Source: an uncultured Prosthecobacter sp. (GTDB taxonomy: Bacteria > Verrucomicrobiota > Verrucomicrobiia > Verrucomicrobiales > Verrucomicrobiaceae). From it: a DNA stretch of 12,998 nucleotides. The position numbers and the translations under genes were made by a program. This document shows, piece after piece, positions 242-9,703 of the stretch. The notes beneath the pieces are model-generated. The model made no database searches. It worked only from the letters and a program-made list of their open reading frames with translations, and was not told the origin of the DNA. The stretch's first letter is position 1. Each line of letters starts with the position of its first letter. Where the stretch lies: contig CALDGV010000231.1 in the NCBI GenBank assembly GCA_937941745.1, positions 1 through 12,998 of the forward strand. The letters are read 5' to 3'.

Positions 242-396
242 GAGTTCGCGCGAACAGTCAACAGAAGCCTCTTTTTGTCATCTGGGCAGATACTGTTCAG
301 GAGAAAAAATCACGACAGACTTTCCTCTGGGTCATGCCCGCCGCCACGCCTCCTGTCTGTGGTCCGGCCGATGAACTTTTGAGACAAATCAGGGGC
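242..396. promoter_or_regulatory. Divergent intergenic region (radical SAM gene / sugar operon)
   Basis: This 155-nt spacer separates the minus-strand radical SAM gene from the plus-strand aminotransferase and must carry the promoters for both. A TTGTCA at 275-280 resembles a -35 box on the plus strand, but no convincing -10 box lies 16-18 nt beyond it. An in-frame ATG at 334 would extend the aminotransferase into this region; I prefer the start at 397. Calling it regulatory rests on position, not on a recognised site. Confidence 0.35.
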
Positions 397-1521
397 ATGA
401 GCACACGCCGCGTCTCCAAGTTTCCAGCCTACCCGGCCTCTGACTGTCTGAGCCAGCTTCCGGAAATCGAACGTGCTGTTGCCAGGGTAATGCGTGGCGG
501 CCAGTTCATCCTCGGCCATGAAGTACGTGCCTTTGAAGAAGACTTCTCAAACTACCTTGGCGTGGAAGAAACGGTGGCCGTTGGCACAGGCACCGATGCC
601 ATTGAACTGATGCTGCGTGCCCTGGACCTGGGCCAGGGAGACGCCGTGGTGATTCCCACCTTTGCACCATCCGCCGTGGCTGCAGGGGTAGAGCGTGCGG
701 GCTGCACCGTCGTGCTTGCAGATGTGGAGCCCGAGTCGCTCACCCTCTGCCCCGATGCCCTGGATGAGATTTTGAGCTCGGATCGAGGCCGTCAGGTCCG
801 TGCCGCGCTTGCGGTGCATCTGTTCGGCCATCCAGCGGACTGGGAGCGCCTTAGCGCAGTCGCCCAAAAACATGGGATTGAGCTGCTGGAAGACGCAGCC
901 CAGTCTCATGGAACACGATGGAGGAACCGGCTGACAGGAAGTCTGGGGCGCATGGCAGCCTTCAGTTTCTACCCGACGAAAAACCTGGGAGCCCTGGGTG
1001 ACGCCGGAGCAGTCACCACATCGGACCCAGACCTGGCAGAGCGTCTCCGGGAACTTCGGCAGTATGGCTGGAGACGGCGCTACATCAGTGATCAGCGGGG
1101 AGGCATCAACAGCCGCATGGATGAACTGCAGGCAGCGATCCTGCGCGCCAAGCTGCCGCTGCTGGAGGCCCAAGTATCGCGCCGCCGAGCACTGGCGGCA
1201 CTTTATCAGGAATGGCTGCCCTCGGGCATCCATCTTCCCGGCACCCAGCCGGGGGCATCCCATTCCTGGCATCAGTTTGTCGTGCGGCTGGCAGATCGAG
1301 ATGCTTTGAAGGAGCATCTGGAGCGAGCCGGCATCCCCGTGGCGGTTTTGTATCCGGCCTGTCTTCATGAACAAGGTGCCTGGGCAGGCTCAGACACCTT
1401 CGCCAACGCAGAAAAAGCCGCTCGTCAGGTGCTGGCACTCCCCCTGCATCCACACCTGAGCCCGGAGGCGGTGATGAGCGTGGCCGAACAGATTCGCGAG
1501 TACCTGCATGTCGCCTCATGA
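397..1521 (+). CDS. DegT/DnrJ/EryC1/StrS-family sugar aminotransferase (FdtB/QdtB-like)
   Basis: A PLP-dependent aminotransferase of 374 residues, predicted to transfer an amino group from glutamate to a nucleotide-linked 3-keto-6-deoxyhexose in the cytoplasm. Visible motifs: VGTGTDA (62-67), the PLP-contacting EDAAQSHG (165-172), SFYPTKNLGALGDAGA with Schiff-base lysine K195, and a later NSRMDELQAA substrate/dimer segment. The SFYPTKNLGA...YGW...NSRMDE pattern resembles the enzymes that make dTDP-3-amino-3,6-dideoxyhexoses (FdtB, QdtB, TylB). The FdtA-like ketoisomerase at 3204-3647 in the same operon agrees with this. ATG 397 gives the usual family length; AGGGG at 391-395 is only one base away, so the RBS is poor. 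ATG 334 would add 21 residues of unlikely sequence. The 3' end overlaps the methyltransferase by 14 nt. Family membership is sure; the exact sugar is inferred. Confidence 0.9.
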   Translation: MSTRRVSKFPAYPASDCLSQLPEIERAVARVMRGGQFILGHEVRAFEEDFSNYLGVEETVAVGTGTDAIELMLRALDLGQGDAVVIPTFAPSAVAAGVERAGCTVVLADVEPESLTLCPDALDEILSSDRGRQVRAALAVHLFGHPADWERLSAVAQKHGIELLEDAAQSHGTRWRNRLTGSLGRMAAFSFYPTKNLGALGDAGAVTTSDPDLAERLRELRQYGWRRRYISDQRGGINSRMDELQAAILRAKLPLLEAQVSRRRALAALYQEWLPSGIHLPGTQPGASHSWHQFVVRLADRDALKEHLERAGIPVAVLYPACLHEQGAWAGSDTFANAEKAARQVLALPLHPHLSPEAVMSVAEQIREYLHVAS

Positions 1522-2239
1522 GCATCACCTCCTCCGCCAGGCGGAAGACACCTACTGGTGGTATGCCGTGCTCCACCGGCTGGTGATGCACGAACTGCGC
1601 CAGCACCTTCCCCAAGGCAGCACCATCCTGGACGCGGGCTGCGGCACCGGCGGACTGCTGGCCAAGCTGTCCATCTGGGAGACGCATGGGGTGGATCTTT
1701 CGACGGAGGCCGTGCGGCTTTGCCACGAACGCGGCCTGAGCCAGGTACAGCGTGGCAGCGTCAATGCGCTTCCCTTCCCTGATGCTCACTTCGACGCCGT
1801 GCTCAGCCTGGACGTTCTCTACCATCAAGAGGTGGATGAGAGCCGGGCCTTGGAGGAAATGAGCCGGGTTTTGAAGCCTGGTGGCATTTGGATCGCAAAT
1901 CTGCCTGCCTTTGAGTGCCTGCGAGGAGGTCATGACTCCGCCGTGTGTGGCTCCCGCCGCTACAAATCCTGTCATGTGCGCCGACGGCTGAGACTGCATA
2001 ACCTGGAGCTTGTGATGACACATTACTGGAATGCCTGGCTTTTCTTTCCGCTCTGGATCTGGCGGATGCAGACCCGGAAGGACGCAAACCCGACTTCTGA
2101 CCTCCGCCCTCTGCCGTCTGCCTTGAACAGGCTGCTGACCTTGGGAGGTAGGGCGGACGCCTGCTTGAGCCGTCATCTGAAAATTCCCTTCGGCAGCTCT
2201 CTCTTTGTGACAGCCAGCCGAGGCACACGGGATCTATGA
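1508..2239 (+). CDS. Class I SAM-dependent methyltransferase
   Basis: A 243-residue methyltransferase of the Methyltransf_11 type. It starts with an HHLLRQAEDTYWWYAVLHRL segment, a form common in small methyltransferases of glycan and secondary-metabolite loci. Next come motif I ILDAGCGTGG (40-49), the acidic GVDLS (61-65) that contacts the SAM ribose, NALPFPDAHFDAVLSLDVLYH (motif II region, 86-106), and the post-II SRVLKPGG (119-126). The C-terminal third is Arg/Trp-rich (WLFFPLWIWRMQTRKD) and may touch the membrane or the acceptor. It overlaps the aminotransferase by 14 nt and the next gene by 4 nt (ATGA), so translation is probably coupled. The substrate is unknown. Context suggests the sugar being made here, either N-methylation of the new amino group or O-methylation, but the sequence is not obviously close to TylM1/DesVI N,N-dimethyltransferases. 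Confidence 0.88.
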   Translation: MSPHEHHLLRQAEDTYWWYAVLHRLVMHELRQHLPQGSTILDAGCGTGGLLAKLSIWETHGVDLSTEAVRLCHERGLSQVQRGSVNALPFPDAHFDAVLSLDVLYHQEVDESRALEEMSRVLKPGGIWIANLPAFECLRGGHDSAVCGSRRYKSCHVRRRLRLHNLELVMTHYWNAWLFFPLWIWRMQTRKDANPTSDLRPLPSALNRLLTLGGRADACLSRHLKIPFGSSLFVTASRGTRDL

Positions 2240-3207
2240 ACCAAACGCTTCCAGAGCCGGAATTCAGCTTTGTCATTCCCCTTTACCAGACAGGAGAAGG
2301 ACTGCCGAAGCTCGTGAGCACCTTCCGCGAGCTTTGGATCGAGGAGCCCTGGGAGCTCATTCTGGTGGATGACGGCAGCACCGACGGCACCTTTGCCCAG
2401 GCCAGCCTGCTGACGCGGGACTTTCCCGCCGAAGTCACCCTGGTGGAACTGGCACGCAACTTTGGCGAACACGCCGCCGTGCTGGAAGGCTGCCGAAGAG
2501 CCCGAGGCCGCTTTTTGGTCACCCTGGACGATGACCTGCAAAACCCTGTGGACGAGGCGGTCCGCCTCCTGCGCCATCTGCGGGATGCCGGGGATGCCGC
2601 CGAAGTAGTTTATGCCAGATATGAGCGCAAACAGCATCCCGTGCTGCGAAACCTCGGCAGCCGACTGGTGAACCTGGCCGCCACTGTGCTGATCGGCAAG
2701 CCTGGAGACCTCTATCTCTCCAGCTTCAGGGCTCTGCGCCGGGAGCTCGTCGAACGCATCAGCAGCTACCGCGGCCCCTACCCTTACCTCGATGGCCTCA
2801 TCCTGGGCGCCACCCGCCGTATTCAAACTCTGGCTGTGCGGCACGAACCACGCCATCAAGGACAGAGCAACTACACGCCGCAGAAACTCCTGCGCCTGAC
2901 CATGAGCATCCTGTTCGATTTCAGCATCCGCCCGCTCAGGCTGGCCGGTGTCCTGGGCGTCCTGCTTTGCCTCGGAGGCGCGCTGCTTTTGGGGACTGTT
3001 TTGATCGAAGCACTTTGGTTTGGATCCAGGCAGGCTGGCTGGCCATCCATCATGGGCGTGATGGCCATTTTCGGAGGCACCCAGCTCCTGATGCTCGGAA
3101 TCATCGGCGAATACGTCGGCAGGGCCTTCCTCATCGTTTCAGGCAAGCCTCAGTCCCTGGTGCGCACCAGCCTGAACTGCCGGCCGGAGCTTTCTGCCAC
3201 CTCATGA
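2236..3207 (+). CDS. GT2 glycosyltransferase, polyprenyl-phosphate type (DPM1/ArnC-like)
   Basis: A 323-residue inverting family 2 glycosyltransferase. The GT-A domain shows FSFVIPLYQTGEGL (10-23), the nucleotide-binding ILVDDGSTDGT (42-52), ELARNFGEHAAVLEG (71-85) and the metal-binding LDDDLQNP (97-104). It also has the GQSNYTPQKLLRL segment (209-221) typical of polyprenyl-phosphate sugar synthases. Two C-terminal membrane helices follow (about 236-260 and 270-292), then a short cytoplasmic tail. Enzymes with this layout (ArnC, GtrB, Ppm/DPM1) move a sugar from a nucleotide to undecaprenyl or dolichyl phosphate at the inner leaflet. Which sugar is used here cannot be read from sequence; a dTDP-amino sugar made by its neighbours is possible. 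The start codon overlaps the methyltransferase stop as ATGA, and its own stop overlaps the next start in the same way. Confidence 0.92.
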   Translation: MNQTLPEPEFSFVIPLYQTGEGLPKLVSTFRELWIEEPWELILVDDGSTDGTFAQASLLTRDFPAEVTLVELARNFGEHAAVLEGCRRARGRFLVTLDDDLQNPVDEAVRLLRHLRDAGDAAEVVYARYERKQHPVLRNLGSRLVNLAATVLIGKPGDLYLSSFRALRRELVERISSYRGPYPYLDGLILGATRRIQTLAVRHEPRHQGQSNYTPQKLLRLTMSILFDFSIRPLRLAGVLGVLLCLGGALLLGTVLIEALWFGSRQAGWPSIMGVMAIFGGTQLLMLGIIGEYVGRAFLIVSGKPQSLVRTSLNCRPELSATS

Positions 3208-3647
3208 ACACCACACCGCCCATCGCACTGCCGGAGGGGGTGCGCCTGATCGATCTGCCGCATTTTGACCAGGCGGCACGAGGCTGCCTGACCGTGGCAG
3301 AAGCACCCGAAAACCTGCCCTTCATCCCGCAGCGGCTCTTCTGGATTTCCCAAGTCTCCAACGGTGAGGCGCGTGGAGATCACGCCCACCGTCAATGCGC
3401 TCAGTTCATACTCTGCATCCACGGATCCTGCCAGGTCAGGCTGAGTGATGGCAGCGCTGACTGCCAGATCCAGCTGGGTTCAGCCAGCCAGGGACTCTTC
3501 GTGCCGCCACTGACCTGGGTCAGTTGCCACCCTGACAATGCCGATTCTTGTTTGCTCGTCTTGGCCTCCAGACGCTATGAAAAGGAGGATTACATTTTTG
3601 ACCTTCAGGAAATGCGCTTCCTGCGTTCCACTGCTTCCGGATCATGA
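3204..3647 (+). CDS. WxcM-like cupin, dTDP-4-keto-6-deoxyglucose 3,4-ketoisomerase (FdtA/QdtA type)
   Basis: A 147-residue single-domain cupin. The family signature RGDHAHRQCAQ (58-68) holds H60 and H62, which correspond to the paired active-site histidines of FdtA/QdtA-type isomerases. It continues with CIHGSCQVRLSDG (71-83), QGLFVPPLTW (96-105) and the closing LLVLASRRYEKEDYI (117-131), all hallmarks of the family. Characterised members isomerise dTDP-4-keto-6-deoxy-D-glucose to the 3-keto sugar, the step immediately before a C3 aminotransferase; that partner is the first gene of this operon. The longer open frame from 2967 lies inside the glycosyltransferase and is rejected as a start. ATG 3204 overlaps the upstream stop (ATGA) and gives the normal family length. 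The C4 stereochemistry of the product (Fuc3N-like or Qui3N-like) cannot be decided by eye. Confidence 0.9.
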   Translation: MNTTPPIALPEGVRLIDLPHFDQAARGCLTVAEAPENLPFIPQRLFWISQVSNGEARGDHAHRQCAQFILCIHGSCQVRLSDGSADCQIQLGSASQGLFVPPLTWVSCHPDNADSCLLVLASRRYEKEDYIFDLQEMRFLRSTASGS

Positions 3648-4732
3648 ACTCCCCTTCCTCACCCGCCCTCTTTGGAGTCTGGTCCGACCCTGAGCGCCTG
3701 CCACAACGCATCACTCTACGACTACGGCAGTGGCCGCCCAGCCTGGTGATGTTCATGCTCAGCTTCATGGCGGTCTTTGTCGGCTGGGTGGATCATCAGA
3801 CCGGCTGGGAGCTCAGCTTTTTCATCTTCTACTCCATCCCTGTCCTGCTCTCCGTGTGGTGGGTCGGCGCCAGCGCCGGCGTCTTCATGGCAATCGTCTG
3901 CGGCATCGTCTGGTGGGTTTCCAACCAGTGGACCAGTCCCTACCATACCGTCTGGGGCTACGCCTGGGCGACTCTGAGCCGGGTGTTTTATTTCGGCATC
4001 GTGGTCTATGCCGTCACTGCTGTCCGAATGCGGCAGGAGGCCGATGCCGCGAGGATTCAAGCCTTGGAAGAGCGGCGTCAGTTGGAGAAGGACATCGTCA
4101 CCGTCAGCGAGCACGAGCAGCAGCGGATCGGCCAGGACCTGCACGATGGACTTTGCCAGCAGCTTGCCGCCATCGGCTGTGCGGCCAGAGTGCTTGCGGA
4201 AGACCTGAAGGCAGGAGGCTACGCCCAAGCAGAGGATGCCGCCGCGATTGAAGAATCACTAAGACAGGCGGTGATGGAGGCACGTGACATGGCACGTGGC
4301 ATTTTCCCCGTTCAAGTGGACCGCATCGGCCTTTCAGCAGCACTTCGAGACCTCTCCGTCACTACCTCAAGGCTCACAGGCATCAACATCGAGGTGGATG
4401 ATCCGGGAGAGGTGCATCTCGACTCCCCGGAAACCGCCATGCATCTTTACCGGATTGCGCAGGAGGCAGTCGCCAATGCTGTGCGGCACGCCCAGGCCAC
4501 ATTTGTGAGGATCAAAATCCATCTGGATGAGCAGTTTCTGAGCTTGATCATTGAAGATGACGGCTGCGGCCTGGGCGGCAAAGGCGCGAGAGCCAGCGAA
4601 GGCATGGGGCTGCGAACCATGCGCTACCGCGCTCAGGTGATCGGAGCCTCCCTTTTTATGGAGCCAAGACTGGGCGGCGGAACACGTATCCGCTGCATGA
4701 TGCCGCTTTCCACCCCCACGAACCATGCCTGA
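3644..4732 (+). CDS. NarL-type sensor histidine kinase with four-helix membrane sensor
   Basis: A 362-residue sensor kinase. The N-terminus has about four membrane helices (roughly 33-50, 56-73, 77-94, 105-127) with only short loops. It therefore has no extracytoplasmic sensor domain and probably senses something in or at the membrane. A coiled linker (about 128-155) leads to the HisKA_3 dimerisation domain with RIGQDLHDGLCQQLAA, phospho-acceptor H167. The ATPase domain shows the N box YRIAQEAVANAVRHA (269-283), DDGCGL (305-310) and GMGLRTMRYRA (320-330), with GGGTRI near the end. It overlaps the ketoisomerase by 4 nt (ATGA) and the response regulator by 8 nt, so it is translated with both. 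NarL-type kinases signal to LuxR-HTH regulators, which is what follows. The stimulus is unknown. Confidence 0.95.
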   Translation: MNSPSSPALFGVWSDPERLPQRITLRLRQWPPSLVMFMLSFMAVFVGWVDHQTGWELSFFIFYSIPVLLSVWWVGASAGVFMAIVCGIVWWVSNQWTSPYHTVWGYAWATLSRVFYFGIVVYAVTAVRMRQEADAARIQALEERRQLEKDIVTVSEHEQQRIGQDLHDGLCQQLAAIGCAARVLAEDLKAGGYAQAEDAAAIEESLRQAVMEARDMARGIFPVQVDRIGLSAALRDLSVTTSRLTGINIEVDDPGEVHLDSPETAMHLYRIAQEAVANAVRHAQATFVRIKIHLDEQFLSLIIEDDGCGLGGKGARASEGMGLRTMRYRAQVIGASLFMEPRLGGGTRIRCMMPLSTPTNHA

Positions 4733-5396
4733 CACTGCCCGCACCAAACCCTGCAAGGTCCTTCTGGTGGAGGATCACCCCATGTTCCGAGAGCATCTGA
4801 GCGCCCTGATCCGACGCGAACTCGGCCTCTCCATCTGCGGGGAGGCGGACAATATTCAGGATGCCATGAGCCTCATTGAGGAGCATCAGCCTGATGTCGC
4901 CATCCTGGACATCACCCTCCGAGGATCGAGCGGGCTGGAACTGCTCAAGGACCTCAAAGCCCGCGGCATTGAGCTCAACGTCCTGGTGCTTTCCATGCAT
5001 GACGAGGACCTTTACGCCGAGAGGGCGCTGCGTGCCGGTGCCCGTGGTTACATAAGCAAAAACGAGGCCTCCCAGGAAGTCATCACCGCCATCCGCAGCG
5101 TGATGAACGGCGAGGTCTATGTCAGCCGGAGCATGAATGCCAAGCTGCTGGCGCGCATGACGCAGAAAGCCGGCAAGAACAAGCTCACAGGGCTCGAACT
5201 GCTGGCCGACCGTGAACTTGAGGTCTTCCACCTCCTGGGCAAAGGCCGCAGCACCCGTGAAATTGCGGACGCCCTGCACCTTGGCGAATCCACCGTCGAA
5301 ACCTACCGGGCCCGCATCAAGGACAAGCTGAATCTCCGCAGCGCCGCTGAACTGTATCTTCGCGCCGGAGAATGGGTCAGGGAGCACGGGGCATGA
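4725..5396 (+). CDS. NarL/FixJ-family response regulator (REC-LuxR HTH)
   Basis: A 223-residue transcription regulator. The receiver domain (about 11-125) has acidic residues E16 and D17, phospho-acceptor D62 in VAILDITLRG, switch residue S90 in VLVLSMHDE and K112 in GYISKNEA. A linker leads to a LuxR-type DNA-binding domain (about 155-215) with the usual DRELEVFHLLGKGRSTREIA and GESTVETYRARIKDKL signatures, the latter containing the recognition helix. It starts 8 nt before the kinase ends, so the pair is almost certainly cognate. Targets are unknown; autoregulation of its own operon or control of the downstream 5493-9703 pair are the natural candidates. The gene ends at a predicted hairpin whose 5' arm overlaps the stop codon. 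Confidence 0.96.
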   Translation: MPDTARTKPCKVLLVEDHPMFREHLSALIRRELGLSICGEADNIQDAMSLIEEHQPDVAILDITLRGSSGLELLKDLKARGIELNVLVLSMHDEDLYAERALRAGARGYISKNEASQEVITAIRSVMNGEVYVSRSMNAKLLARMTQKAGKNKLTGLELLADRELEVFHLLGKGRSTREIADALHLGESTVETYRARIKDKLNLRSAAELYLRAGEWVREHGA

Positions 5397-5430
5397 CAGG
5401 GGACGAGCGGCAGCCGCTACAAGCCCTGTC
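5395..5430 (+). other. Imperfect hairpin overlapping the response regulator stop codon
   Basis: GACAGGG at 5395-5401 pairs with CCCTGTC at 5424-5430, and inside it AGCGG (5406-5410) pairs with CCGCT (5414-5418) around a CAG loop. The result is a 7-bp outer and a 5-bp inner stem with small internal loops. No T-run follows, so it is not a classical intrinsic terminator. It could protect the 3' end of the upstream mRNA, pause polymerase, or be the first stem of a structured leader for the next gene. The pairing is seen directly; function is inferred. Confidence 0.5.
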
Positions 5431-5439
5431 TGTGGCAGC

Positions 5440-5490
5440 AAACCGCCTTTCGCGCTGAAATGGCGGCGGTTTAACCAAAAAACCGCCGCC
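5440..5490 (+). promoter_or_regulatory. Mutually exclusive hairpins directly upstream of the 5493 start codon
   Basis: Segment B, GGCGGCGGTTT (5462-5472), is a perfect 11-bp complement of segment C, AAACCGCCGCC (5480-5490), with a 7-nt loop. Segment A, AAACCGCC (5440-5447), repeats the first eight bases of C and can pair instead with 5465-5472. A:B and B:C therefore compete. C ends two bases before the ATG at 5493, so the B:C stem would cover the ribosome-loading region. There is no T-run, so a standard terminator is not supported. Possible roles are a translational on/off switch or attenuator, or an unconventional terminator between the two-component genes and the next unit. It could also simply be a DNA palindrome. 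Confidence 0.5.
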
Positions 5491-5492
5491 CT

Positions 5493-7307
5493 ATGAAAGA
5501 GCCTTCCGCATCCTCATCGACCTCCTCCATCCCAGGTTTCAGGCGTTACCTCATCCCTCTTTTGATGGCCGGCCTGTGCTGGCTGATGTATGGGCATACG
5601 CTCCACCACGAAAACGTCCTCGATGACGGACTTTATGTGACGGAGAATCCTTACCTCAAGGACGGCCGGAGCTTTCTCTACCCTTTTGAATTCAAGGAAT
5701 TTGCCCGCAGCCATGCCGTGCATGGCACCAGTTCAGACGTGACGCTGAACTTCATCACCCGTCCGGTCACCTACGCCACGTTCTTTTTGAACCTGCAGCT
5801 GGACGGCAAAGCCACCCCAGGCTTTCGCCTGATGAACATGGGCTTCCACCTGCTGAACGCCCTTCTTCTCTACCACTTGTGCCAAAGACTGACAGGACAC
5901 TCCAGAATCTCACTGATTTCAGCACTGGTGTTCTTGTGTCATCCACTCGCCACGGAGTCTGTAACATACATTGCACAAAGATTTGAACTGCTCGTCACAC
6001 TCTTCGCACTGGCTGCACTGATCAGCTGGCTCAAAGCGGGTGAGGCTGACGAAATGAACGAAAAAGCAGGCATGCGTTGGAGGGTGGCAAGCCTTGCCTT
6101 CACCCTTCTGGGAATGCTCTCGAAGGAAAGTGGCTTCCTGATCCCCTTCCTCATCCTGGGCATGGACATCCTGCTCAACAGAAAATCGGCCCTCAAAACC
6201 CTCTGGTCCCTGCGCTGGCATGCCCTGCTGCTGCCGATCGTTCCAGGACTGATCCTGGCATTTCACTTCATCAATGATGTCGAAGGCACCGGAATCGCCG
6301 GAGCACTTCACATCACCAACGTCAGCATCAATCCGGTGACCATCTCCGATTATGCAATGACCCAAGTCTGCGCCTGGCTGACATACCTTAGGCTGATCCT
6401 GCTGCCTTACGGTCAGAGCTTTGATCATGATTATCCGCTTGTGACTTCGCCGCTTGACCCTCGTTTCATGATGTCCGCAGCCATCATCGTCACCCTGCTG
6501 ACCGCCTCGTTCATGTTCTGGAGGCGCAGCCACAGGCTTGGAGGTCTAACGCTATCAGGCCTGGTCTTTTTCTTGGTTACGTTGGCGCCTTCATCCAGCA
6601 TCATTCCTCTGCCTGACGTTTTTGCAGAGCATCGAAGCTACCTCGCTTCCGCAGGCATCATCATCAGTCTCGCCGGAATCCTCCTGTGCCTGCAAAGCTG
6701 GAGTCCCACCTTCAGCAAGCCTTTGAATTACTCGCTTGTTGCGGTCATCCCCATACTGATGCTTTGCACCCTCACGCGCAATGAGGTCCTCAGATCCCGC
6801 GAGTCCATCTGGCAGGATGCTTATGCCAAGGGCTCCGAGAGAGCCAGGGTGCTGAAGGGGCTGGGAATCGCCGCCTTCAATGCAGGCAGGCCGGAAGAAG
6901 CGATCAAGCTTTTCCAGCGCTCAACGCAGAAGCATCCCAAGGACTTTGAATCGTGGCACAATCTCTGCCAGCTCCTGATCCGGAAAGGGCGCTTTCAGGA
7001 GGCGCTGGATCAGTCCAGGGCGGCAGTTCAAGAAGTCGGCCCACTCCTACCGCTCGCCCACATGCATGCTTATGCGCTAAGAGGCCTGGGCCATCGGCAG
7101 CAGGCTGTGGAGGTCTGGAATGAAATTGCGCGGGTCATCCCTGACCAGCGCGAAGCCCATCTGAATCTGGCTGAACTCATGGTGGAGGCCAATCAATGGG
7201 CCAGGGCAGCCATGCACCTGAATGCTGCTGAACGCAGTGGCCCCCTGAGCCCTGAGCATGCGGCGCTAAAAGCCAGGATCACGCCTCAAATCGCCGGCAA
7301 CCCATAA
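5493..7307 (+). CDS. Multi-pass GT-C/TMTC-like glycosyltransferase-type membrane protein with C-terminal TPRs
   Basis: A 604-residue integral membrane protein. A first helix (about 18-34) is followed by a loop with VLDDGLYVTEN (42-52), whose acidic pair sits where GT-C enzymes keep catalytic carboxylates. Then come TRPVTYATFFLN (89-100), FHLLNALLLYHL (118-129) and a segment ending HPLATESVTYIAQR (150-163), further helices to about 430, and AEHRSYLASAGI (378-389). This order closely recalls TMTC-type O-mannosyltransferases and their bacterial relatives, which use lipid-phosphate sugars on the outer face of the membrane. Residues about 450-600 form at least three TPRs (GIAAFNAGRPEEAIKLFQRS, LLIRKGRFQEALDQS, ALRGLGHRQQAVEVW), likely acceptor- or partner-binding. 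It lies 96 nt after the response regulator, behind a hairpin, and 8 nt before the next gene. No good RBS is visible. Activity is inferred from fold-level similarity only. Confidence 0.8.
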   Translation: MKEPSASSSTSSIPGFRRYLIPLLMAGLCWLMYGHTLHHENVLDDGLYVTENPYLKDGRSFLYPFEFKEFARSHAVHGTSSDVTLNFITRPVTYATFFLNLQLDGKATPGFRLMNMGFHLLNALLLYHLCQRLTGHSRISLISALVFLCHPLATESVTYIAQRFELLVTLFALAALISWLKAGEADEMNEKAGMRWRVASLAFTLLGMLSKESGFLIPFLILGMDILLNRKSALKTLWSLRWHALLLPIVPGLILAFHFINDVEGTGIAGALHITNVSINPVTISDYAMTQVCAWLTYLRLILLPYGQSFDHDYPLVTSPLDPRFMMSAAIIVTLLTASFMFWRRSHRLGGLTLSGLVFFLVTLAPSSSIIPLPDVFAEHRSYLASAGIIISLAGILLCLQSWSPTFSKPLNYSLVAVIPILMLCTLTRNEVLRSRESIWQDAYAKGSERARVLKGLGIAAFNAGRPEEAIKLFQRSTQKHPKDFESWHNLCQLLIRKGRFQEALDQSRAAVQEVGPLLPLAHMHAYALRGLGHRQQAVEVWNEIARVIPDQREAHLNLAELMVEANQWARAAMHLNAAERSGPLSPEHAALKARITPQIAGNP

Positions 7308-7315
7308 AATCCCCG

Positions 7316-9703
7316 ATGCATCTTGCCTTCGCGTCGCTGTTTTTCCTGGGTTCTGGCGCTTCAGCACTGATCTATCAAATCTGCTGGCAGCGGCTTTTCG
7401 TGGTGTTCGCAGGCGGCGATTTGCCAGCCATCACGGTCATCGTGGCGGCCTTCATGCTTGGACTAGGGCTGGGCAGCTCACTGGGAGGCCGCATGGCAGA
7501 CCATCAGACCCAGCTGCGTAACGTGATCAGCTTTGTCCTTGTCGAGCTGGCGATCGCAGCCTGGGGTGTCGGCAGTGAATGGCTCTACCATGACCTTCTC
7601 TACCAAAAGCTCGGGACTCTGGCCAGGGCCAGGGTGACCAGCCATGTGCTGCTTTTTCTAATGCTCATCCCACCCACGATCTTGATGGGGCTTTCCCTGC
7701 CACTGCTGGCAAGGGCACTGACACCGTCGCTTCAGCAGGCCCCGGCAAACATCAGCCTTCTTTACGGCTTGAACACACTGGGAGCAGCTGCTGGAGCCTT
7801 CATCACCCCATGGTGCCTTGTGCCGCTCTGGGGCATTTCAGGCGCACTGCAAATCGCCGCAGCGCTGAACGGAATTTGCGCCTTCGGCATCGCACCACTG
7901 ATCTGGCTCAAGCGCAGAGAAAGGACCGATGATCTTCAAAACGTGGATGTGGAGCAGGCCACCCATCAACCTGATCCTGTGAGAGATTCGAACTGGCGCC
8001 TCTGCCTGATCTTGCACGGTGTCACAGGCTTCATCGCACTGGGGCTGGAGATGATCTGGTTTCGGGTCCTGGGCGTGCTGCTGAAATCCACGGCATTCAC
8101 CTTTGGAACCCTGCTGAGCCTTTATCTTCTAGGGCTCGGCCTCGGGGCACTGCTTGGAGCCAGATTCATCCACCTTTGGAAGGACCCTCTGAAGGCTTTC
8201 CTGCGCATGCAGGCGGCTCTTGTCGCAATGGCCGTGCTCTCCATGGCAGCTTTTCTTTACCTGGTGCATCATGTCAGCTCATTGGCCGAGTTGCTGACAT
8301 ACCTGGACAGCTATGAACCCCTGGATGCCAATACAGCCATCGCACAGCTTCTGAATCCTTCCCTGGATCGAAACGGCTTTCCTGCCCCTGGCCTGCTTCC
8401 CATCCTTCACCTGCTGGTTCCAGCCATCTTGATGCTCCCATCCACCATCCTGATGGGCATGGCCTTTCCCGCACTCCAAAAAGCAGCCCAGACGAGCCGC
8501 ACTCATCTCGGCCAGCGTATCGGTGACTTGCAGGCTGCCAACATCGCAGGCGCAGTCCTCGGATCGTTGTTGGCAGGCTGCATTCTGCTCGCCTGGCTGG
8601 GCACGACGGGAACCTTGCGCATTCTCGTCCTTCTCGCTTTTGCTTTGGCGATGCTCTCACTGCCCCCAAAGCAGCGCTTTCGCGCTGCAGGCGTGGTTTG
8701 CACCGCAGTTGGCCTTTTCGTGATTCAGGTCCTGCCAAGTCAGCATGCCTTCTGGGCGGCCGTCCATGGTAGTTCAGCTTCAAAGATCACCCAGGTGGAG
8801 GACAGCACTGGAGTGACTGTTCTGAAGAAGACGGACCCTGATGCAGGGCATGATGGCGACACCGTCGTTTATGTGAATGGCATTGGTCAGAGCTGGCTGC
8901 CTTATGGCGGCATCCATACAGCTTTGGGCGCCTTGCCGGCCTTGCTCCATCCAAAGCCTGAAAACATCGCGGTGATCGGCCTGGGCTCGGGCGATACGGC
9001 TTATTCGGCAGGCACACGTTATGAAACTCGTGAAATCGTCTGCGTGGAAATCATCGGCGGTCAGCTTGAGGCACTCAGGAGGCATCATGAGTTGCATCCG
9101 TCGCCCTCCCTTCAGATGCTGCTTCAAGACAGTCGCATTCGTCACGTGCACGCAGACGGCCGACGTTTCCTCATCGGCACCAAGCAGCGCTTTGACATCA
9201 TTGAGGCAGATGCGCTTCGCCCTAACAGCGCGGGCTCCGGAATCTTGTACTCCGAGGAGTACTTCCAACTCCTGAGGCGTCGTTTGAAGCCTGGCGGCTA
9301 TGCGGTGACCTGGCTGCCGACTGAGCGTGTCCGCAGGACTTTTCTCAAAGTATTTCCCCATGTGCTGGATCTGGGGGCCATCGCGATCGGCAGCCCGGAT
9401 CCCATCACAGCCAATGCGCCTGACTTGCGCCGCCGCATGGGTTATCTCGAAGTGCGTCAGCACTTCCGTCTGGCAGGGGTGAAGATCCATGAATTGCTGG
9501 CTCCATACGTGCAGCTCAACTTCAACAGGCACCTCGTCTCTCCTGATTTTCAACGCGATTCACTCCGGGACCTGAACACCGACCTGCTGCCGCGTGATGA
9601 GTTCCATCTGCCAGCCCTCTGGCCATCTGCAGACTTGCCGATGGAACCAGGCAACGATGTGAGGGCGGGCACGAACCCATCACTTACTGCGGACCGTTCA
9701 TGA
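7316..9703 (+). CDS. Membrane protein fused to a spermidine-synthase-like domain
   Basis: A 795-residue fusion. Residues 1-470 are hydrophobic, about a dozen helices in two related halves: LPLLARA-type and FPALQKA-type segments follow near-identical PTILMG/STILMG motifs (119-133 and 375-390), and IYQICWQRLF (19-28) echoes LEMIWFRVLG (244-253). Residues about 490-670 are a Rossmann methyltransferase-like domain with IAVIGLGSGD (551-560), VCVEII (576-581), ADGRRFL (613-619), FDIIEADALRP (626-636), YSEEYF and LKPGG. The arrangement matches proteins annotated as fused MFS/spermidine synthase. D632 fits the first aspartate of the SpeE DxxD motif, but the second is R635, so polyamine synthesis is doubtful. 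The remaining C-terminus (about 670-795) is a poorly conserved tail. It begins 8 nt after the TMTC-like gene and is probably co-transcribed with it. Its 3' end overlaps the convergent lipoprotein gene by 20 nt. Substrate and role are unknown. Confidence 0.85.
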   Translation: MHLAFASLFFLGSGASALIYQICWQRLFVVFAGGDLPAITVIVAAFMLGLGLGSSLGGRMADHQTQLRNVISFVLVELAIAAWGVGSEWLYHDLLYQKLGTLARARVTSHVLLFLMLIPPTILMGLSLPLLARALTPSLQQAPANISLLYGLNTLGAAAGAFITPWCLVPLWGISGALQIAAALNGICAFGIAPLIWLKRRERTDDLQNVDVEQATHQPDPVRDSNWRLCLILHGVTGFIALGLEMIWFRVLGVLLKSTAFTFGTLLSLYLLGLGLGALLGARFIHLWKDPLKAFLRMQAALVAMAVLSMAAFLYLVHHVSSLAELLTYLDSYEPLDANTAIAQLLNPSLDRNGFPAPGLLPILHLLVPAILMLPSTILMGMAFPALQKAAQTSRTHLGQRIGDLQAANIAGAVLGSLLAGCILLAWLGTTGTLRILVLLAFALAMLSLPPKQRFRAAGVVCTAVGLFVIQVLPSQHAFWAAVHGSSASKITQVEDSTGVTVLKKTDPDAGHDGDTVVYVNGIGQSWLPYGGIHTALGALPALLHPKPENIAVIGLGSGDTAYSAGTRYETREIVCVEIIGGQLEALRRHHELHPSPSLQMLLQDSRIRHVHADGRRFLIGTKQRFDIIEADALRPNSAGSGILYSEEYFQLLRRRLKPGGYAVTWLPTERVRRTFLKVFPHVLDLGAIAIGSPDPITANAPDLRRRMGYLEVRQHFRLAGVKIHELLAPYVQLNFNRHLVSPDFQRDSLRDLNTDLLPRDEFHLPALWPSADLPMEPGNDVRAGTNPSLTADRS

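Follow-up and report, generated by a model that had tools for sequence, protein, structure and literature searches.

Sugar 3,4-ketoisomerases of the FdtA/QdtA type work with DesV/QdtB aminotransferases in the pathways to dTDP-3-amino-3,6-dideoxy sugars, and at the locus described here the ketoisomerase and C3-aminotransferase families likewise lie side by side, whereas FdtA is stand-alone, a methyltransferase accompanies it and the product is predicted only. The ArnC/ArnT system, which loads an amino sugar onto undecaprenyl phosphate and transfers it, combines a polyprenyl-phosphate GT2 with a GT-C enzyme, as does this locus; in contrast, the proteins here fall below the ArnC and ArnT equivalog cut-offs, the GT-C enzyme has a TPR tail and the operon carries its own two-component pair. 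TMTC/PMT protein O-mannosyltransferases share the GT-C fold, DD motif and TPR tail with the GT-C enzyme of this locus, which is bacterial, has a predicted amino sugar donor and, unlike them, shows no match to DUF1736 (PF08409), the domain by which TMTC membership was tested, in the Pfam scan at E up to 0.01. Autoregulated two-component systems of the NarL/LuxR type join a HisKA_3 kinase to a GerE regulator with a dyad box at its own promoter, as is predicted here, whereas here the box and the putative regulon are mostly confined to one locus and one box lies in a coding sequence. Bacterial transcription factors bound within coding sequences have been shown by ChIP-seq and SELEX (PMC9600179); there the regulatory site lies within a gene, as the candidate site does here, whereas the candidate site described below was recognized by sequence conservation, by constraint on its codons and by relatives in which the box is intergenic. 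Nothing on this locus was found in the literature searched, most subscription journals being outside the reach of the search.

The window is a 12,998-nt stretch of DNA from an uncultured Prosthecobacter sp., and its forward strand carries six overlapping genes. These encode a DegT/DnrJ/EryC1 aminotransferase (gene 1, 397..1521; PF01041, E 2.7e-94, 316.8 bits against a cut-off of 19.8), a SAM-dependent methyltransferase (1508..2239; PF08241, E 9.5e-21) with a presumed substrate, an ArnC/GtrB-like GT2 (2236..3207; PF00535), a stand-alone FdtA-type sugar 3,4-ketoisomerase (3204..3647; PF05523, E 9.1e-37, 126.2 bits against 23), a HisKA_3 and HATPase_c sensor kinase with N-terminal membrane helices (3644..4732; PF07730, 38.9 bits against 24; PF02518, 44.1 against 26.4) and a NarL/LuxR-type response regulator (4725..5396; Response_reg PF00072, 92.7 bits against 30.2; GerE PF00196, 54.7 against 23.5). 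The families agree with those of the original prediction, and the overlaps of 14, 4, 4, 4 and 8 nt on which it relied were confirmed. They also recur in relatives: an in-frame kinase start overlaps the FdtA stop by 4 nt in 25 of the 29 sequences that have both genes (24 ATG, 1 GTG), and an in-frame FdtA start overlaps the GT2 stop by 4 nt in 26 of 28 sequences, several sequences offering further in-frame starts. The string is real, whereas its boundary was drawn too short, since the conserved unit also includes the GT-C gene at 5493..7307 on the same strand, which usually follows the six genes in relatives. For gene 1 the ORF tool placed the start at 334; the ATG at 397 was chosen because it has the usual distance from the upstream box described below and because the same ATGAGC start is found in L001 and L002. 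The best NCBIfam matches of the pair were MctS and MctR, below the equivalog cut-offs (122.2 bits against 700 and 146.7 against 300). On the minus strand, 2-241 encodes the beginning of a radical SAM protein (rSAM_link_UDG family) that is truncated at the edge of the window, and the window contains no RmlA/RmlB-type genes, flippase or acceptor proteins.

The idea that the first four genes form a sugar-activation and lipid-loading set agrees with their closest relatives of solved structure. By sequence, these are 2oga (labelled a transaminase, which we take to be DesV) and QdtB 3frk for the aminotransferase, the WxcM/FdtA/QdtA proteins 4zu4, 2pa7 and QdtA for the ketoisomerase, whose RGDHAH aligned with RGEHAH of 4zu4 (the HAH motif is common with the solved members), and ArnC (9bhc/8vxh/9hwj) and sll0501 for the GT2, which scored 145.2 bits with the ArnC equivalog NF007986 against a cut-off of 529. 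The methyltransferase matched only varied, generic methyltransferases. Gene 1 is thus a likely sugar 3-aminotransferase, with position 3 predicted. In L016, the one relative examined in which no pair lies beside the glycan genes, FdtA is fused to a hexapeptide acetyltransferase; the stand-alone FdtA of the units studied here therefore suggests a 3-amino sugar that is unacetylated and perhaps N-methylated.

The predicted GT-C enzyme has C-terminal TPR repeats, and both the GT-C fold and a conserved acidic pair in the first loop were found, which places it in the GT-C superfamily. A profile search against solved structures gave only TPR matches among the best 60 of 343, the 50 Foldseek matches listed were all TPR proteins, and the GT-C matches emerged in a second look with VIA-align. 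In our view the probable role of the unit is to add an unusual amino sugar to proteins on the surface of these soil and water bacteria. A competing view is that the acceptor is a lipid or polysaccharide instead, as lipid A is for ArnT; this seems rather unlikely, although it keeps some weight. Against it, a report on TMTC-type protein O-mannosyltransferases (PMC7801869) describes a TPR tail and DD motif like those of the GT-C enzyme, a weak argument, because a fold does not show the acceptor.

The GT2 scan of genome contigs gave 32 loci, and L001-L025 were used for neighborhood clustering, with L032 and L026-L031 left out. Gene order from the aminotransferase through methyltransferase, GT2, FdtA and kinase to regulator was kept on one strand in L001-L010; L011 has no aminotransferase or methyltransferase, L021 is rearranged, and L012-L020 have glycan genes with no adjoining kinase-regulator pair. 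Besides the unit genes, the neighborhoods share few gene clusters, the outside genes being different. Regulator orthologs are 63-87% identical, while paralogs are at 50% or less (17 genomes), and an ortholog was found in 39 of the 68 genomes of the family of G001 (Brevifollis), at 41 places. The GT2 gene was present in 41 of the 68 (E <= 1e-70); 34 genomes had both, five only the regulator, seven only GT2 and 22 neither. The linkage that was predicted to be conserved in relatives was borne out, since 27 of the 39 regulator-bearing genomes (27 of the 41 with GT2) have GT2 no more than 10 kb from the regulator, these loci being related by descent and the counts thus not independent. Coupling of the glycan genes to the pair is not universal, because seven regulator-bearing genomes have GT2 elsewhere and five have none at the cut-off. 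All 14 unlinked GT2 genes are at most 59% identical, and the linked ones are at least 61% identical except that of G017 (54%). Two further linked cases were L088 of G052 (40%, below the cut-off) and L126 of G057 (below the cut-off or across a contig break). In L081 (G045) glycan genes and regulator accompany only a kinase fragment, with no GT-C match and no box between regulator and GT-C gene, which suggests a decaying unit or an assembly fault.

Motif finding was run separately on the gaps between the regulator and GT-C genes and on the regions upstream of gene 1, and both runs returned the same 34-bp element, GTgGyG-N5-CryNACa...TGTCnTTTGC. One copy precedes gene 1 and another the GT-C gene, and a further copy is either within the methyltransferase coding sequence or in front of GT2. 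In the window, with the combined matrix, the first box (P1; 331..364, forward strand) lies 33 nt before gene 1, with 32 nt between, and scores 17.6 bits, and the box between the regulator and GT-C genes (P7; 5404..5437, forward strand) scores 19.6 bits. For the cross-promoter test each set was scored with the matrix of the other set, its own locus left out, against the 99th percentile of dinucleotide shuffles; 24 of 24 gene 1 regions and 32 of 33 gaps (the miss being L069) passed. The window P1 box, taken alone the weakest of its three boxes, scored 6.6 bits with the gap matrix lacking the window, a value reached by a fraction of 0.0007 of 1440 shuffles, and the P7 box scored 9.4 bits with the gene 1 matrix lacking the window, a value reached by none of 1980. 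As a negative control, the cross-promoter matrix found the box in none of the 11 loci whose glycan genes have no adjoining pair, including two (L014 and L019) whose genomes have the regulator elsewhere. L071, L081 and L089 were dropped from the upstream test, gene 1 being cut by the contig start, and L069 (gap set) and L005, L008, L010, L021 and L088 (gene 1 set) were left out of matrix building; all of these last six were scored. At a 10-bit threshold the combined matrix found the P1 box in 21 of 24 loci (none above 10 bits in L005, L008 and L010) and the P7 box in 33 of 33, and only nine scores exceeded 10 bits in 2.27 million positions of reversed sequence. A sigma-70 consensus scan of 250-5600 found no promoter against 0.9 expected, and a terminator scan gave five against 3.7 expected. 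Between the P7 box and the GT-C start at 5493, the segments AAACCGCC (5440-5447), GGCGGCGGTTT (5462-5472) and AAACCGCCGCC (5480-5490) could pair in two ways to give alternative hairpins; an interspersed repeat and an attenuator are both possible.

The third box of the window (P3; 1947..1980, forward strand, 22.0 bits with the combined matrix) lies inside the methyltransferase gene, 255 nt before GT2. At the same codons the matrix exceeded 10 bits in 22 of 30 methyltransferase genes; it did so in none of 204 other unit genes and in none of 11 methyltransferases from loci without the pair. Such a box could be a by-product of protein conservation in the GxRRYxxCHV codons and no regulatory site, and in keeping with this, RRY is retained in several methyltransferases from loci without the pair and the sequence flanking the box is conserved as well. 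We regard this as improbable, since the methyltransferases from loci without the pair do not score, and since codon resampling, in which the protein was kept and codons were redrawn from locus usage (400 draws each, own locus outside the matrix), gave P(max) <= 0.015 in 21 of the 30 genes and <= 0.05 in 24 (0.013 in the window). Moreover, in L004, L009 and L011 the box is found 31-40 nt before GT2 instead, as it is in the gap before GT2 in L126. No coding box above 10 bits was found in L021, L035 and L072-L075. Taken together, these results support a constraint on the coding box at the DNA level beyond the protein. The internal box before GT2 itself suggests that separate transcripts are possible, and the case for self-regulation does not rest on translational coupling. 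The box, at promoters and in the coding sequence, is new relative to the original prediction.

The distribution of the box follows that of the regulator. Scanning the 68 family genomes with the pattern at up to three mismatches gave 91 matches against 34 in the reversed control. All 47 sites with at most two mismatches are in regulator-bearing genomes (33 of the 39) and none is in the other 29, and 44 of the 47 lie within 8 kb of the regulator. Sites with three mismatches (16 near the regulator, 19 far from it and nine in genomes without it) are at background level. Two of the three remote sites are contig-broken unit ends, and the third, a 27.6-bit box of G052 (L125:6744), stands just before a homolog (36% identity) of the gene downstream of the GT-C gene, remote from the unit. 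In the window that gene (7316..9703, forward strand) encodes a fused MFS/spermidine synthase-like protein (NF037959, above cut-off); it follows the GT-C gene in L001, L122 and L021 and is a probable co-transcribed passenger, or a member in a few genomes. Where the pair lacks adjoining glycan genes, a GT-C gene with the box is found in L033, L086, L090 and L091. In L033 (G013) four homologs of the GT-C gene stand in a row after the pair, the first three each with its own box of 35-39 bits, and in L068 the box precedes the kinase and regulator genes themselves. L034, L036 and L076 hold the pair with no adjoining glycan genes, GT-C gene or strong box (L036 has only 12-14 bit matches); L034 and L036 are two of the three regulator orthologs of G016, the other being L035.

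The box is a dyad of the half-sites GTxGyG and CryNAC, with outer pairs complementary in 72, 77, 59 and 65 of 79 sites. An RNA hairpin was considered in place of a DNA operator; pair 3-15 is complementary in only 22 of the 79 sites and pair 5-13 in 37, and the complementarity thus fits a protein-bound dyad better than a stem. A sigma-54 promoter for TGGCGTTATTTGC in the P1 boxes was dropped, its GG-GC spacing being off that of the sigma-54 consensus. At the GT-C promoters a -10-like CAaAnT lies 18-19 nt past the TTTGC end of the box, and the right edge of the box overlaps a likely -35; the regulator would therefore be placed next to this element or on top of it, a position open to activators of this class, and we infer that it activates at the box. 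No clear -10 follows the P1 boxes. The same arrangement at the P7 box would suit the view that an unlinked factor reads the box, or that it is a general promoter element, with the two-component pair as a passenger. We hold this to be quite unlikely, since sites with at most two mismatches occur solely in regulator-bearing genomes, also where the pair has no adjoining glycan genes; the box was absent from the 11 glycan clusters that the pair does not accompany; and outside the family, G081 and G188 have regulator and box but do not share the unit.

The reading that we prefer, at a probability of roughly 0.68, is that the locus is an autoregulated HisKA_3/NarL two-component glycosylation unit with predicted binding of the regulator to the box. 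The computation showed directly the families, the GT-C fold and the linkage, the box that the promoters share and its occurrence together with the regulator, and the constraint on the coding copy beyond the protein; regulator binding, activation, sugar, acceptor and signal are predicted. FdtA and the aminotransferase would convert a common dTDP-4-keto-6-deoxy sugar to a dTDP-3-amino-3,6-dideoxyhexose, the methyltransferase would modify this amino sugar, the ArnC-like GT2 would put it on undecaprenyl phosphate, and the GT-C/TPR enzyme would transfer it on the outer side of the membrane, with surface proteins as the probable acceptors. The kinase would phosphorylate the regulator (26 of 55 positions of its HTH are invariant in the family), which would bind the box at three sites: the gene 1 promoter, the site inside the operon ahead of GT2, and the promoter of the GT-C gene. 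We accordingly propose that both the operon encoding the pair and the main target of the pair are under its control. The self-regulation proposed for the locus thus gains from the box that gene 1 and 5493-7307 have upstream in common and that co-occurs with the regulator.

In a sample of 386 genomes from the order, 44 carried the regulator; 39 of these are the family genomes, and the remaining five have it at six places (L134-L139). No glycan gene or GT-C homolog adjoins these six places in the 3-15 kb regions examined. At L134 (G081) a box of 33.4 bits, at 1.7 kb from the regulator, stands in front of an open frame (at least 1,375 residues) that contains a LEPR-XLL domain, and a weaker box of 17.6 bits on the opposite strand faces a divergent gene. 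A 29.0-bit box in G188 stands in front of an open frame that is at least 4,377 residues long (L153:1-13131, minus strand), with PATR repeats in a later 2,000-residue piece and no family match in the first 499 residues. L135-L138 have no box above 8 bits (the contigs of L137 and L138 are short), L139 has weak boxes of 11.6 and 13.1 bits, and the rule that a box accompanies the regulator thus cannot simply be carried over to genomes outside the family. Since the broad pattern gave 14 matches in 11 genomes against 12 in the reversed control (none in G129 and G324), only its high matrix scores were used, namely G081 (33.4), G188 (29.0), G059 (25.2) and the contig ends of known units, all of them scores with no genome-wide null.

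The structure model of the kinase predicts only short loops between its N-terminal helices, in line with a kinase that has only intramembrane helices, and invariant polar residues lie among these helices in an alignment of 36. The original suggestion that the pair perhaps senses lipid-linked sugar is not supported: the sensor residues D50/Y63/W72/N94/R113 are kept in orthologs that do not adjoin glycan genes (L034, L036 and L134-L137; N94 is D in L139), and two outside genomes place the box before giant surface-protein genes. A sensor that monitors the lipid-linked sugar or undecaprenyl phosphate state of the pathway itself, within otherwise real regulation, would suit a kinase with no extracellular domain and such polar residues, and is very improbable given those same residues in the unlinked orthologs. 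Since the outside boxes precede giant surface proteins and the sensor residues are kept there, some envelope or surface cue is favored over a glycan intermediate as the presumed signal.

Neither the enzyme families nor the kind of two-component pair is out of the ordinary; what is unusual is a compact, autoregulated and mostly one-locus predicted regulon with a candidate operator in a coding sequence. For an uncharacterized sensor pair from a phylum that has received little study, it provides a concrete, testable regulon, and it connects regulated expression with a glycosylation pathway that is predicted to depend on lipid. It is also a natural example of a predicted operator that is conserved within a gene and for which close relatives have an intergenic version, so that the cost of such an overlap could be measured. 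Tentatively, and with less than even confidence, we suggest that a pair serving surface proteins, with its box before LEPR-XLL/PATR giants outside the family, may have been taken over in the Brevifollis/Prosthecobacter family for the control of protein glycosylation through the amino-sugar operon and GT-C/TPR enzyme, with one operator in the methyltransferase codons that would shape VCGxRRYxxCHVR and could move to an intergenic gap.
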